From positions 1 through 35,983 of the forward strand of contig JAFWHT010000010.1 in assembly GCA_017511965.1 (NCBI GenBank): a stretch of 35,983 bases of DNA, read 5' to 3'. This document shows, one piece after another, positions 9,481 to 30,729 of this stretch (its first letter is position 1; each line of letters begins with the position of its first letter). This DNA is from Candidatus Saccharimonadota bacterium (GTDB lineage: Bacteria; Patescibacteriota; Saccharimonadia; Saccharimonadales; Saccharimonadaceae). Made by a program: the position numbers and the translations under genes. The notes under the pieces were generated by a model, which was not told the DNA's origin, made no database searches, and worked only from the letters and a program-made list of their open reading frames with translations.

Positions 9481-9489
9481 TGGTATAAT
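9481..9489 (+). promoter_or_regulatory. Extended -10 promoter for the FISUMP switch gene
   Basis: TGg-TATAAT (9484-9489) is followed by six bases and the ATG at 9496. This fixes 9496 as the true start even though the reading frame from it is interrupted. Confidence 0.65.
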
Positions 9490-9495
9490 AGATAT

Positions 9496-12260
9496 ATGAG
9501 AGTTAAATCACAAAATCGCATATATATATATATATATTAGTTGCTGCCCTAATTAGCTCTACTCTTGTTTCTGGACTGATACTCGCGGGGAATTCCGCTT
9601 CTGCTGTTGATAACGTAGTAGACACCGTCTCCATCACCGTCTCCGAATCATGTAATCTCACTACTACTTCAGGTCCTGGACAAACCTATAATGTTAATAT
9701 GCAAAATGGCCAATATAAAAACGATATAGGCAAAACCAGAATCAATGTCTTTTGTAATACTGAAGACAACTTCTCTATCTATGCCATAGGCTATTCTAAT
9801 AATACACTAGGCAACAATACCATGTTAGCATCGGGAGTGGGGAGTATCCCCACCGGCACCGCCACATCGGGCGACACTTCCCAATGGGCCATGAAACTAG
9901 AAGCAGTCACAGGTACTGGTATAGGCACAGGTCCAAACGCAGGCATCAATAGTTACACTCCTACTATTATATCCCCATTCACTAACTTCACTAATGTACC
10001 AGATAACTGGACCAAAGTAGCAGAAGTAGCTAGTGTCACTGGTACTACTAACCAAGCCGCTATTGATGCTTCTTATGCAGTATATATGTCACTAAGTCAA
10101 CCTAGTGGCAGTTATACTGGCAAAGTCAGATACACAGTACTCCACCCAGCTAGTGCAGTGCCTAACCAACCGATAGCCACATCTCCAGGCAAAATAGGCT
10201 ATGTGCCTAATGCCAATGGTCTAGTCATAGACACTATGGCAGATCAAGAATACACAGGGTACACTAGCACAGTAGATAACTTCACTACACCACTCACACC
10301 AAATAGTGAAGCTACACTCTGGGCATCTAACTTCAAACGCCCAGGATACGGCTTTGCAGGCTGGTCTACTACCTATGACTATTCAGACCCTAATGGCTTC
10401 TATGGTCCTAATCAGACTATCACTACACCAACCAACCTAGACCAAAAAGGCTTAACACTCTATGCTATATGGATACCTAGTGCAGGCACTTTGCAAAACT
10501 GGACTGGCTGTAATTCATTAACTACAGGCCAAGTCACAGCTCTAACAGACACTAGAGACAATAATACATACGCAGTAGCCAAACTCGCAGACAATAAATG
10601 CTGGATGATTGAGAACTTAAGGCTGGGTGGTAATACAGCAATTAACCTAACACCAGACAATACTACTATCTACTCTAATTTAACTCTGCCTGCTTCTACT
10701 GATACATTCACTATCACCAGCTATAATAGTATAGAAATGAATGCAAGCAATACGGTAAATCCAGTCGCTAATATGACTGCCAGTACTGATGCCGCTTATA
10801 GTTATGGTAATTATTACTCATTTGCGGCAGCAGTAGGCACTACTGCAGATTACGGTGTAAATAATACAAGTGTTACCACGAGCATTTGCCCTAAAGGATG
10901 GCGATTACCAATAGGCGGTAACAAAAATAATGAAGCTAATAATGAATATTGGGATCTAGTTGTTGCGAAGCTTAATAATAACACCAGCCCAACCAACTAC
11001 CCAAATAATATAGCGCCATATTATAATGGGGATACTGAATCTAATCCCGTAGATAAATCTCTTCGTACCTATCCTAATAATTTTGTTCACTCAGGCTATG
11101 TGCTTGGTTCGTCGCTTAGGTTTCAAAGTGTTGGTGGATATACATGGTCGTCTACGGTGAGTTCCTCGACTAATGACTACATTTTAGGGTTTAACCGTGA
11201 CTACGTTGCTCCGGGTACAGGCAACGGGAATAAGTCTTTTGGTTATAGCGTGCGCTGCGTCAGTGACCCACCAGTCACCATCTCCGACGCCTACCAAAAA
11301 TCTGGTAAATCTACTCACAACGGCTATTATAAGATGCAAGACATGAGTGATAGTATTTGTGGGATGGTGAATGTGTTAGACGAGCCAGGACAAACCCAGT
11401 TAATAGATACTAGAGACAACAAGGTCTACTGGGCAACTAAATTACAAGACGGGAAATGTTGGATGACGCAGAACTTAGACTTAAACTTAAGCACATCCAC
11501 TGCACTCACTAATGCTGATACAGACCTAAATACAGTTGCTTCTTGGACGCCGATGAGAAGTACCATTAATGCCGTAACTAACGCATCTACTTCAGGCAGT
11601 ATTACTGGTTGGACGAATGATTATAATACGCCATATTCGATAGATACGGGTGACTATTATTGGAAAAATGAACCATTCTACGACTCTAGTTTATGCAACA
11701 AAGTAGTAGGTGGAGTAAATTATCAAGGTTGTAACTACGTCACTAAAGCTGATGCTAGTTGGAAGAATTACTTTGCGACTACACCTTACGCTTCTAACGG
11801 CGCTCACGGTCATGTAGGTAACTATTACAACTGGTCTACTGCAGTAGCCAGCAACGATACTTCTGCCTACACTGCAGATACAATGGCTAATATCGCCAAC
11901 AACCCACCAAATTCCATTTGTCCGAAAGGCTGGAGATTGCCAACTGTCACTAGCGCATCACCAGATTACACTCAAGCAAATTCACGAGACGAATTCTCCA
12001 GATTAGCTTACTTATACGATAATTATACAGGTAATACTAGCATTAGCAGTGAAGGCTTAGAAAAAGCTCCACTCTATATGTCTCGCACCGGTCGCGCTTA
12101 CGCGGGACTCGACAACGTTGGATACTATGGGTACTACTGGTCTTCTACGGCGTCTAGCGGTACGTTCGCGCGGGCCCTAGTATCCTATTCTACGATGGTT
12201 TACCCCCAGCACGAGGGCTACCGCTTCAACGGGGCTTCACTGCGTTGCTTAGCTCGGTAA
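9496..12260 (+). CDS. Large secreted two-FISUMP surface protein, out of frame at an (AT)9 tract
   Basis: From the ATG at 9496 the frame reads MRVKSQNRIYIYIY and stops at 9538. The long frame is open from 9507 to 12260 but has no ATG before 9699. Removing one AT unit joins them into about 920 codons, with a good signal peptide: basic start, hydrophobic core through LVAALISSTLVSGLILAG, and the cleavage site NSASA before VDNVV. The exported part has an N-terminal beta-rich domain, an InlB/Listeria-Bacteroides-type repeat (RPGYGFAGW to LTLYAIW, about 10338-10470), FISUMP domain 1 (about 10490-11265) and FISUMP domain 2 (about 11340-12257). Domain 2 is closely similar to the protein at 2-952 except for the last 55-60 residues. 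The role is probably adhesion. It could instead be a pseudogene or contain a sequencing error in the tract. In the present state a secreted product is not expected. Confidence 0.75.
9520..9537 (+). repeat. (AT)9 dinucleotide tract within signal-peptide codons
   Basis: Nine perfect AT units lie 24 bases after the start codon. (AT)8 or (AT)11 would bring the signal-peptide and mature-protein frames together; (AT)9 and (AT)10 would not. Confidence 0.9.
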
Positions 12261-12315: not shown

Positions 12316-12390
12316 GGTCTCGTAGTATAACGGTTAGTACATCGGGTTTTCATCCCGACAACGCGGGTTCGACTCCCGCCGAGATCACCA
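12316..12390 (+). tRNA. tRNA-Glu (TTC)
   Basis: Acceptor GGTCTCG/CGAGATC with one G-U pair, anticodon loop TTTTCAT (TTC), T-loop TTCGACT and encoded CCA. A run of six T follows CCA directly, so the tRNA's own stems may serve as the terminator hairpin. Confidence 0.95.
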
Positions 12391-12444
12391 TTTTTTGTGT
12401 AAAGCGGAGTCGAATCTTCGATGCGACTCCCGCCGAGATCACCA
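12370..12444. repeat. Direct repeat of the tRNA-Glu 3' end
   Basis: The last 21 bases of the tRNA, 12370-12390, recur exactly at 12424-12444, 54 bp downstream. Between them a 7-bp inverted repeat (GGAGTCG/CGACTCC) overlaps the second copy. This has the form of attachment-site scars left by tRNA-targeting integrases, though only 33 bp now separate the copies. The second copy provides the stop codon of the minus-strand gene. Confidence 0.75.
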
Positions 12445-27632: not shown

Positions 27633-28430
27633 ATGGTTAAGAAACTTAGGCGCGGGTTTACTTTGGTTGAAGTGGGGTTGTTTTTGGGAGTGACCGGAAT
27701 GCTTTTTGTGGGTATTGTGATGGGGGTGCAGGGTTCGATGTTTCAGCAAAGGTATAATGATTCGGTACAAGGCTTTGCAGATTTTTTGAGGACGATTTAT
27801 GCGCAAACCTCAAATGTAGAGGGAGATAAAGCAGCCGGAGGCGGTAGAACAGAAAAAGCGATTTACGGGAAGTTGGTTACCTTTGGCGAGAAGCTTAATT
27901 TGGAGGGAAAAACTAATAGCGATAATTCGATTTTTTCTTATACGATAGTTGGTAACGTAAAAAATGAAAATATCGATTCAAATAATGTATTGGAAGCGCT
28001 TAAAGGTGTTGATGCAAATGTGATTGTAAAAAATGGTAGCAGATTTGATTATGCGGGAATTGCGAGCCAATATGCTCCAAGATGGTCGGCGAAAATCCAA
28101 ACAATCAAAGCGCCTCCGTATGTAGATTTTAAGGGCGCGCTTTTAATTGTGCGACATCCGAGTTCGGGTACGGTATTTACGTATGTATTGGATGGAGAGA
28201 CAATAGAAGTAAACGAGAGAAAGAAAAATATGACAGTGCTTTCGAACCCGCTGAGGGAAAAATTGGATAGGTTCATAATTAGCGAAGTTAATTTTTGCGT
28301 GAATCCAGAGCCAGAGAAAGCAAGTAGTGTGAGAAGAAATGTAAGGATTGCCGAAGGAGCAAGAAATGCGTCGGGAGTGGAAGTACCAGCTCAAGATGAT
28401 CGTTCGGCGGGAGGGAATAAATGCAGGTAA
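27633..28430 (+). CDS. Type IV pilin-like protein with class III-type signal
   Basis: This 265-aa protein begins MVKKLRRGFTLVEVG: the basic leader, the G before F at the cleavage point and the glutamate five residues in are the prepilin peptidase signature. A hydrophobic helix (about residues 9-30) follows, then a 230-residue outside domain rich in Asn and Gly. The role is a pilus or pseudopilus subunit. It is the first of three pilin-like genes and has a leaderless-type start. The last residues lie within the next gene (10-bp overlap). The C-terminal part (NVRIAEGARNASGVEVP) is low-complexity. Confidence 0.85.
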   Translation: MVKKLRRGFTLVEVGLFLGVTGMLFVGIVMGVQGSMFQQRYNDSVQGFADFLRTIYAQTSNVEGDKAAGGGRTEKAIYGKLVTFGEKLNLEGKTNSDNSIFSYTIVGNVKNENIDSNNVLEALKGVDANVIVKNGSRFDYAGIASQYAPRWSAKIQTIKAPPYVDFKGALLIVRHPSSGTVFTYVLDGETIEVNERKKNMTVLSNPLREKLDRFIISEVNFCVNPEPEKASSVRRNVRIAEGARNASGVEVPAQDDRSAGGNKCR

Positions 28431-29359
28431 AAAAAGGTTTTACATTGATTGAATTGTCTTTGTCTTTGGCTTTTATTGCGATTTTGTCTTTGACGATTGC
28501 GTTTATTATTAATGAATCAGTGGTTTCTTATAGAAGAGGGGTGACTTTGAAACGGATAAACACTACGGGTATTGGGTTGGTCGATGATATGCGAGCGGCA
28601 ATTCAGAATTCATCAACTAAGTCGCTAAAAGATGACTGTAAGATAACATACGGATTTAGTGGTATGAATAATGGAGTGATTCAGAGATGCGAGAATGATG
28701 GTGCTAAGAATTTTGTGACTTTGACTAAAACTGCCAATGCGACTGGTAAATCAACCCTAAGAAACATCCCAGTTTACGGGGCGTTTTGTACAGGATCTTA
28801 TACATATATTTGGAATTCGGGATATTTCTTTACGGATGCGACAAGTGCATATAGAGTAAGTGGGGCAAACAAGGCAGAACTAAAATTTAATACTAATACT
28901 TCTGTGGGCAACAATGAAGTTTGTAGAGTAACTGGTAGATCTGGTACCGTAAACAGAATGCAGTGTAGTGATTTTAAATTGTTGAAGGTAAAAGATTCCT
29001 CACGAGCAGTTTGTATGGCGGTGGCGGGTGCTAATTATACAGTGAGTAATGTGAATAATGTTTTTGATATTACTGCGACAAGCGAAATTATTACTGAGAC
29101 ACCAATCGATTTGTTGGCTTCTAATGCGGCGGGTGGAGGATTGGCGATTTATAATTTGTTTGTATCGGGTCCGGCAGAAAGTACAGAAAAAGACGCATTG
29201 TTTTATTCGGTATCTTTTATCTTGGGAACTTTGCAAGGTGGCGCAAACATTACGAAGTCAGGGAACTTTTGTTCTACTCCTGACGATTTTAAGTTTGAGA
29301 ATTTTGACTATTGTGCGATTAATAAATTTAATTTTGCCGCGGAGGCAACTGGAGTATAA
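28421..29359 (+). CDS. Type IV pilin-like protein
   Basis: This 312-aa protein begins MQVKKGFTLIELSLSLAF, a textbook prepilin signature with cleavage after KKG and glutamate at +5. The hydrophobic helix ends near residue 35. The outside domain contains about nine cysteines, some in nearby pairs (CKITYGFSGMNNGVIQRC, SGNFCSTPDDF), which suggests disulfides made by a DsbA-type enzyme. The size is large for a major pilin, so a minor or tip subunit is likely. GGGAGG lies five bases before the ATG, within the preceding gene. The third pilin gene starts two bases after its stop. Confidence 0.85.
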   Translation: MQVKKGFTLIELSLSLAFIAILSLTIAFIINESVVSYRRGVTLKRINTTGIGLVDDMRAAIQNSSTKSLKDDCKITYGFSGMNNGVIQRCENDGAKNFVTLTKTANATGKSTLRNIPVYGAFCTGSYTYIWNSGYFFTDATSAYRVSGANKAELKFNTNTSVGNNEVCRVTGRSGTVNRMQCSDFKLLKVKDSSRAVCMAVAGANYTVSNVNNVFDITATSEIITETPIDLLASNAAGGGLAIYNLFVSGPAESTEKDALFYSVSFILGTLQGGANITKSGNFCSTPDDFKFENFDYCAINKFNFAAEATGV

Positions 29360-29361
29360 AT

Positions 29362-30729
29362 ATGCTTAAAGCTAAAACAAAATTTAAAAAAGGTGCAGCG
29401 TCGTTTTATATTGTGGCGTTTTCGACATTGATTTTGGTGGTGATAGCGGCTAGTTTTACGACTGTGATATTGTCTGAAATGGCGATGAGCGAAAACGATG
29501 AATTGTCTCAGTCGGCTTATGATGCGGCGTTGGCAGGGCTTGAAGATGCAAAAGTGGCTTTTGCTAATTATCAGAAATGTAAGCAGGGTGGAGTTTCTAG
29601 TGGGGCGGTATCTTGTGCTCAAATTGATGCGATGGTCAAAAATCCAGACTGTGGAATGGTGGCGAAGATTTTAGGGCGAAATAGTACAGGAGAGGAAGTT
29701 TTGGTTGAAGAGAAATCGAATTATTCGGGAGGTGTGTCGAATAATATGCAACAAGCCTATACGTGTGTTAAAATTGGCGCAACGCTTAGCAACTATACTT
29801 CTACTTTGACAGAAGAAGATACTACAAGAGTAGTAAGAGTTAAATTGGCAAATGGTGTAAGAGCTAGACAAATTCAGAGAGTTAAAATAAGTTGGTATTC
29901 AACGAAAGAGTATAGCTCGGTGGCTGGATCAAACTACAATTTCCCGATTATTCCTAATGAAAATAAATTAGCATTCCCGCCATTTAGGACGACATCTATT
30001 GCATTGCCGCCGATGCTTTCAGTAGGGTTGGTGCAAACAGCAGATGTTTTTGCGTTGAATGATTTTGCAATAGTTAGCGGTAATAGAACGAATAGAGGAA
30101 CGGTATTCTTAGTACCGACAAAAGATTATGCTTATGCGTCAAAGACACAAACCGATGCATATAATAACGATTTAAGCGTGAATTATATCGGAACTTGTAA
30201 TGGGCGAACCGAAAGTGTTTGTAGAGAAAATGGTGGTTTAATATCGGTACCACAAGTCGTAAAAACTAATGACCAGACTGCTAAGAATTTTCCGTTTGCA
30301 GTACTTTGTTCGAATGGTAGAAATGCGGGCGGTGATTTTGCCTGCTCGACATGGTTAGAATTGCCACAGCCTATCGGTGGCGATCGTAGCGATGAAACAT
30401 TTATGTTTGTGGTTACGTTGCCATATGGTCAACCAAGTACAAGCTTTTCTTTAGAATTTTATTGTGCAGATGGAACGGTTTGTAGTGGAGCTGGTGGTGC
30501 AGCTGGGAGTGGAAGTAATAAAGCTGAGATAAGTGGTACTCAAATAGAGATTGATTCAACAGGGCGAGCGAACAACCTATATCGAAGAATTTTAACAAGA
30601 ATGGAGCCGGCAGATACGAGTTTTCCGTTCCCGCTTTATGCAATTGAGCTTTTGAAACCGAACCCGACACCATCAGAGAGTTTGTTGATAAAACCTGGTA
30701 TTGTAACGAGCGAATATAATTTCTATTAA
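29362..30729 (+). CDS. PilX-like minor pilin / pilus-associated protein
   Basis: This 455-aa protein begins MLKAKTKFKKGAASFYIVAF and continues with a hydrophobic helix to about residue 36 and SEMAMSENDELSQSAYDAALAGLEDA. This matches the PilX N-terminal pattern, in which GAA follows the leader and an alanine-rich amphipathic helix follows the span. The canonical glutamate at +5 is missing, as in some atypical minor pilins. The outside domain is large with several cysteines and a Gly/Ser-rich linker (GAGGAAGSGSN). GGAG upstream supports the start. It ends the three-gene pilin unit; the extension ATPase lies at 18938. Confidence 0.78.
   Translation: MLKAKTKFKKGAASFYIVAFSTLILVVIAASFTTVILSEMAMSENDELSQSAYDAALAGLEDAKVAFANYQKCKQGGVSSGAVSCAQIDAMVKNPDCGMVAKILGRNSTGEEVLVEEKSNYSGGVSNNMQQAYTCVKIGATLSNYTSTLTEEDTTRVVRVKLANGVRARQIQRVKISWYSTKEYSSVAGSNYNFPIIPNENKLAFPPFRTTSIALPPMLSVGLVQTADVFALNDFAIVSGNRTNRGTVFLVPTKDYAYASKTQTDAYNNDLSVNYIGTCNGRTESVCRENGGLISVPQVVKTNDQTAKNFPFAVLCSNGRNAGGDFACSTWLELPQPIGGDRSDETFMFVVTLPYGQPSTSFSLEFYCADGTVCSGAGGAAGSGSNKAEISGTQIEIDSTGRANNLYRRILTRMEPADTSFPFPLYAIELLKPNPTPSESLLIKPGIVTSEYNFY

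Follow-up and report, generated by a model that had tools for sequence, protein, structure and literature searches.

An AT-repeat tract as a likely slipped-strand switch in a Saccharibacteria family of FISUMP genes with retroelement-rewritten tips

The (AT)9 tract lying in the signal-peptide codons of a large FISUMP gene of Saccharibacteria is very probably an ON/OFF contingency switch driven by slipped-strand mispairing, one of a genome-wide set whose slippage would go uncorrected in a cell without MutS and whose protein tips would be rewritten by retroelements. The gene was found in the window (the whole 35,983-nt stretch of DNA analysed here), which belongs to a 695-kb Saccharibacteria genome in 39 contigs, 97% complete (G000, hereafter the source genome). 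A first-pass annotation had already recognised the form of a contingency locus, a reading supported by the recurrence of the tract, by the mixture of frames, by copies that differ in tract length, by OFF copies that look to be under purifying selection and by the absence of MutS, but too modest, as both the multigene extent of the switch and the targeting by diversity-generating retroelements (DGRs) were missed. The features of the locus, together with a sister gene at the start of the window, are listed below.

2-952, + strand: sister FISUMP gene, C-terminal part, cut by the contig start, with a variable-region-like end at 765-951 (sequence)
9481-9489, + strand: extended -10 promoter element TGGTATAAT, TATAAT core at 9484-9489 (direct sequence reading)
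9496-9519, + strand: start codon and positively charged N-region MRVKSQNR of the predicted signal peptide (sequence, frame reading)
9520-9537, + strand: (AT)9, the tract proposed to switch by slippage, with a TAG directly after it at 9538 that makes the given phase OFF (sequence)
9538-9605, + strand: in the long frame, what remains of the signal-peptide core, then the cleavage site (LVAALISSTLVSGLILAGNSASA; site placed by inspection)
9606-12260, + strand: mature part of the FISUMP protein, an intact run of 884 codons plus a stop, yet out of frame with the ATG at 9496 (frame reading, PF09603, TIGR02145)
10593-11261, + strand: first FISUMP domain (counted in the frame that begins at 9699, residues 299-521)
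11397-12251, + strand: second FISUMP domain (domain search)
12084-12247, + strand: variable-region-like C-terminal stretch of the window gene (differences from the template on contig C8)

The order of the sequence is TGGTATAAT-agatat-ATG AGA GTT AAA TCA CAA AAT CGC (AT)9 TAG, so that the ATG at 9496 opens, as given, a peptide of 14 residues and then a stop, whereas the long FISUMP frame, which runs from the tract to a stop at 12258-12260, holds 912 open codons; the separation of the two by the tract, as claimed in the first-pass annotation, is a matter of direct reading. Its arithmetic was likewise right, as one AT fewer or two more (n = 8 or 11 units, n = 2 mod 3) gives a single uninterrupted frame of 920 residues, and so was its proposal that the restored N-terminus has the form of a complete signal peptide, here read as MRVKSQNR-IYIYI-LVAALISSTLVSGLILAGNSASA with VDN after the cleavage site. 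The tract had also been placed inside the hydrophobic-core codons, where IYIYI was held to be harmless: (AT)n gives Ile and Tyr codons in all frames, and because of this the export signal would tolerate any n that restores the frame. No ATG, GTG or TTG lies upstream of the tract in the long frame of the window, and its earliest ATG, at 9699, is already 3′ of the signal peptide. Only 6 nt separate the -10 element from the ATG at 9496, and the mRNA is therefore probably leaderless.

The window protein scores above the FISUMP cut-offs of both NCBIfam TIGR02145 (90.3 against 41.65 bits) and Pfam PF09603 (42.8 against 33.9 bits), and its signal peptide and surface display are predicted. An AlphaFold model of the second FISUMP domain, built on an alignment of 9 sequences, reached a pLDDT of 34, too low for recognising the C-type-lectin fold that marks DGR variable proteins, and a search of solved structures (PDB) by sequence gave a sole weak match (E = 0.084). 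The tract is not a product of chance, since (AT)9 did not appear in any of 100 shuffled versions of the window with the dinucleotide composition preserved and the whole genome has no (A[C/G])7 tract, as compared with 13 tracts of (AT)8 or longer.

Some neighbouring features of the window are recorded here in their own right. Just 3′ of the FISUMP gene, the 3′ terminus of a tRNA-like gene occurs twice as a direct repeat (CGACTCCCGCCGAGATCACCA, 12370-12390 and 12424-12444), an arrangement like the scar that an integrating element leaves at its attachment site. At 2-2760, the truncated FISUMP gene is followed by acyltransferase-like and glycosyltransferase-like genes, and the same pair lies directly 3′ of an out-of-frame (AT)8 FISUMP-like gene in another genome (L118, G152 contig C5). 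Finally, a row of prepilin-like genes at 27633-30729 (GFTLVEVGLFLG, GFTLIELSLSLAF) probably encodes type IV pilus minor pilins.

When the source genome was searched for the pattern, 13 distinct AT tracts were found, each 8-10 units long. All share one layout, in which an ATG and 4-35 codons are followed by the tract, a hydrophobic core and a sequence like a cleavage site, and in most of them a -10 box stands a few bases 5′ of the ATG; a comparable test of 5′ end and hydrophobicity is passed by 4.2% of random window positions. Judged by sequence, no fewer than twelve sister genes of the genome carry the same proposed switch. The frame is readable at 11 of the 13 tracts, the contig stopping at the tract in the other two, whose bodies are therefore unread, and it is ON (in frame) at three of them (L005, L011, L016) and OFF at eight (the window gene, L006, L007, L008, L010, L012, L013, L014). 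In contrast to these 3 of 11, the four tract-free FISUMP genes of the same genome, which have ordinary signal peptides (L048, L051, L054, L055), are all in frame (Fisher p = 0.026). The comparison of unit counts in related genomes that had been proposed in the first-pass annotation added 20 tract genes elsewhere in the genus, selected visually on the presence of a start codon and of a body like that of a signal peptide, of which 9 are ON and 11 OFF. The pooled count of 12 in frame out of 31 (12:19 genus-wide, source genome included) fits a proportion of 1/3 and not one of 0.95, with a ratio of about 1:2 as expected under free slippage, where both states are seen among paralogues and species rather than strains and the unit counts come from consensus assemblies, one genome per species.

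Within the genus, the (AT)8 pattern occurs in 36 of 174 genomes, leaving 138 without it. The strict promoter-ATG-tract pattern was found in 6 of 394 genomes of the family, all of them in the genus of the source, and its reversed control had no matches in the same 394 genomes. Many AT tracts of relatives are intergenic, among them L017, L020, L022, L024, L042 and others, which are not members of the class, and neither are L041, L093 and L101, where the tract lacks a start like that of a signal peptide. Intergenic tracts of the genus (L042, L017, L024, L030 and others) reach 16 units, some of them near promoters, and it is possible that they act as expression-level switches. A scan of the genome collection returned FISUMP relatives in Saccharibacteria, from ruminant gut and elsewhere, with 35-49% identity and no AT tract above 4 units. 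The related records are Candidatus Saccharibacteria, several from ruminant gut. The species has no close relative in the genome collection: the best match of the LigA C-terminus is 77%, and in none of 29 relatives checked does the window gene adjoin ligA, which leaves the exact locus without an orthologue for comparison.

Evidence of slippage comes from copies that differ in the tract but hardly beside it. Two pairs have near-identical, gap-free flanks on both sides and carry 8 against 9 units (L010/L013 and L019/L023), and two more share the downstream flank, with 8 against 9 units (L005/L012) and 10 against 8 (L007/L016); the flanks compared in these four pairs are 97-100% identical, with no other indel. 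As judged from these alignments, tract length changes faster than the flanks. MutS, searched for with the MutS_V profile, is absent from the source genome and from 29 further relatives, against matches in 11 of 14 genomes used as controls, and it is because of this absence that slippage of the AT units would go uncorrected.

If the switch were a mere artefact of assembly or consensus, the true tract would have 8 units and the gene would always be ON. The data are indeed a consensus assembly, and 10 tracts lie at contig ends or within about 350 nt of them, the weakest zones of an assembly, but such errors would have had to arise independently at 8 of 11 loci here and at 11 of 20 elsewhere, in tracts of 16-20 bp that are far below read length and in assemblies whose frames are otherwise intact, which makes this the most improbable of the alternatives. 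Highly improbable, too, is a permanent inactivation, by which the OFF copies would be dying pseudogenes or silent donor cassettes, as might be suspected from the OFF state of most copies and from the internal stops in the reverse transcriptase of one retroelement (contig C7). Against it, the OFF copies retain long open frames, with dN/dS of 0.13-0.20 at dS 0.6-1.6 when compared to the in-frame tract-free paralogues of the source genome, which are themselves unbroken, and the window frame of 912 codons has no second lesion. In the OFF/OFF pair L010/L013, frames of about 590 codons are intact with dN/dS of 0.16 at dS 0.56, so that the OFF state looks reversible and the OFF copies look to be under purifying selection. 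It is very unlikely, finally, that the unit count is irrelevant, with protein made in every phase from a non-AUG start 3′ of the tract or through slippage of RNA polymerase or the ribosome. In other systems, an OFF state can be leaky owing to slippage on the repeat, and ATT, ATA and CTG codons occur near the tract in the long frame; however, none of the usual starts precedes the signal-peptide core in that frame, a start after the tract would drop the N-region, and the promoter spacing suggests a leaderless mRNA whose 5′ ATG is the sole start.

A further explanation is that the tract serves mainly as a recombination joint, which reshuffles promoter/N-region blocks and bodies and changes the frame as a by-product. 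The tract genes are in fact mosaic: prefix blocks that span the -10 box, the ATG and the N-region up to the tract, about 40 nt in all, are common to loci with unrelated bodies and upstream DNA (L005/L006, L012/L016), and bodies are common to loci with different prefix blocks (L005/L012, L007/L016). The same mosaic extends over L005, L006, L007, L012, L014, L015 and L016, where blocks and bodies are combined differently and the AT tract is the junction. Nevertheless, such shuffling needs no alternating tract of 16-20 bp, and it fails to explain the length differences between copies that are alike on both sides (L010/L013, L019/L023), so that a joint in place of a switch is unlikely; the two roles are compatible, and the tract of a slippage switch may also be a recombination joint. 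About 26 of the 78 contig ends fall inside this gene family, which is therefore probably the main cause of the fragmentation of the draft.

Besides the slippage switch, a second layer of variation was found in the same family. In the source genome, RVT_1 matches adjoin two tract-free FISUMP genes, on contigs C8 (L113) and C7 (L114), and each of these retroelements includes a template that copies the 3′ end of the FISUMP gene. Substitutions between template and variable region in cis fall on template A in 15 of 15 cases on C7 and 12 of 14 on C8 (27 of 29 in total). The C8 reverse transcriptase (RVT_1, 53 bits) has IGNLTSQ, the DGR form of motif 4, (I/V/L)GxxxSQ, and its template reads Asn-rich, as is typical of such elements; the pair on C7 is perfectly A-specific although its reverse transcriptase has internal stops. 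Targets in trans follow the same pattern, with 20 of 21 substitutions at template A on contig C36 and 14 of 16 on C4, and the (AT)9 gene L013 has 20 of 30 differences there. In the case of the window, the sister gene at its start shows 21 of 39 differences at template A, and the switched gene itself 21 of 44 against the C8 template (26% expected, p = 0.0018), a weak, drifted bias that would make it at most an old or indirect target; other FISUMP 3′ ends share such a weaker bias. In a sister genome (G026), an in-frame (AT)10 gene above the FISUMP cut-off (L115, contig C13) is followed downstream by a reverse transcriptase with IGNLTSQ and an inverted template, of which it is the cis target, with 32 of 33 substitutions at template A (p = 2e-18). 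RVT matches were found in 8 of the 15 genomes with such AT tracts. By their sequences, the retroelements of C7 and C8 in the source genome and C13 in G026 bear the defining marks of DGRs, and both layers are likely to be joined in single genes, on contig C13 of G026 and at L013 of the source genome.

The most plausible pathway would start at replication, when the gain or loss of an AT unit in living populations would set the signal peptide in register with the body or out of it, so that one phase in three would export the protein, each ATA and TAT being tolerated within the core. With at least a dozen independent switches, a clone would be a mixture of surface types, each cell showing a different random subset of the family. 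The proteins would be FISUMP-type binders, the C-terminal tips of several of which are rewritten by DGRs, so that switching would pick which tips are displayed and retro-hypermutation would set what they bind. The FISUMP domain says little about the ligand, presumably a phage, an animal target or the surface of the bacterium that serves as host, and a selective agent acting on the display is likewise presumed. On the whole, a two-layer diversification of the Saccharibacteria surface seems probable, with at least a dozen AT-switched FISUMP binders, retroelement-rewritten tips, and promoter/N-region blocks exchanged at the tract.

Each layer has known counterparts. The oipA gene of Helicobacter pylori and related outer-membrane protein genes carry CT repeats in the signal-peptide region, the count of which sets ON or OFF (PMC10564699), and the Neisseria opa genes carry CTCTT repeats in the leader peptide that shift the frame by slipped-strand mispairing across a surface protein family (PMC3960869). 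As with oipA, the unit count of a dinucleotide tract in signal-peptide codons decides the frame of a surface protein, whereas the unit here is AT, the proteins are FISUMP, the phylum is unrelated and the oipA system has no retroelement layer. As with opa, the repeat lies in the leader-coding region of a multigene surface family, but opa has a pentamer, barrel proteins and variation by recombination, in place of a dinucleotide, FISUMP proteins and a retroelement. The likeness is in mechanism alone, as the window protein is not homologous to Opa or OipA and its only Pfam family is Fib_succ_major. On the retroelement side, a clade of DGRs restricted to Patescibacteria/CPR is known (DGR clade 2, Roux et al. 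2021, PMC8144416). The elements described here, likened to those by DGR hallmarks rather than by clade, share a reverse transcriptase with IGNLTSQ, a template/variable-region pair, changes at template A and a C-terminal variable region, and differ in their FISUMP targets, several of them in trans and some with an AT switch in the signal peptide; the main text of that survey does not mention FISUMP. A hypervariable repeat gene of Gracilibacterium BD1-5, which probably encodes a surface protein (PMC6851277), is another case of repeat-driven variation in a CPR bacterium, but its repeats are in-frame 9-mers that keep the protein sequence, with no ON/OFF frame switch. Among open-licence PMC papers, no report was found of slippage phase variation in Saccharibacteria, in line with the novelty suggested in the first-pass annotation, nor of one gene with both slippage and retroelement layers.

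Saccharibacteria live on other bacteria, and the one studied here is a tiny, host-dependent gut bacterium. Cells so reduced must attach to their hosts and escape phages or the resistance of the host, by means that are still debated in the field, and the heavy investment of a 0.7-Mb genome in switched, retro-hypermutated secreted proteins points to molecules that are likely to be important. The phase-OFF frames explain why annotation pipelines would call such genes truncated, and the switch family explains where the draft assembly breaks. If the proposed reading is true, slippage phase variation would be extended to the Patescibacteria, and in the same genes as retroelement hypermutation.
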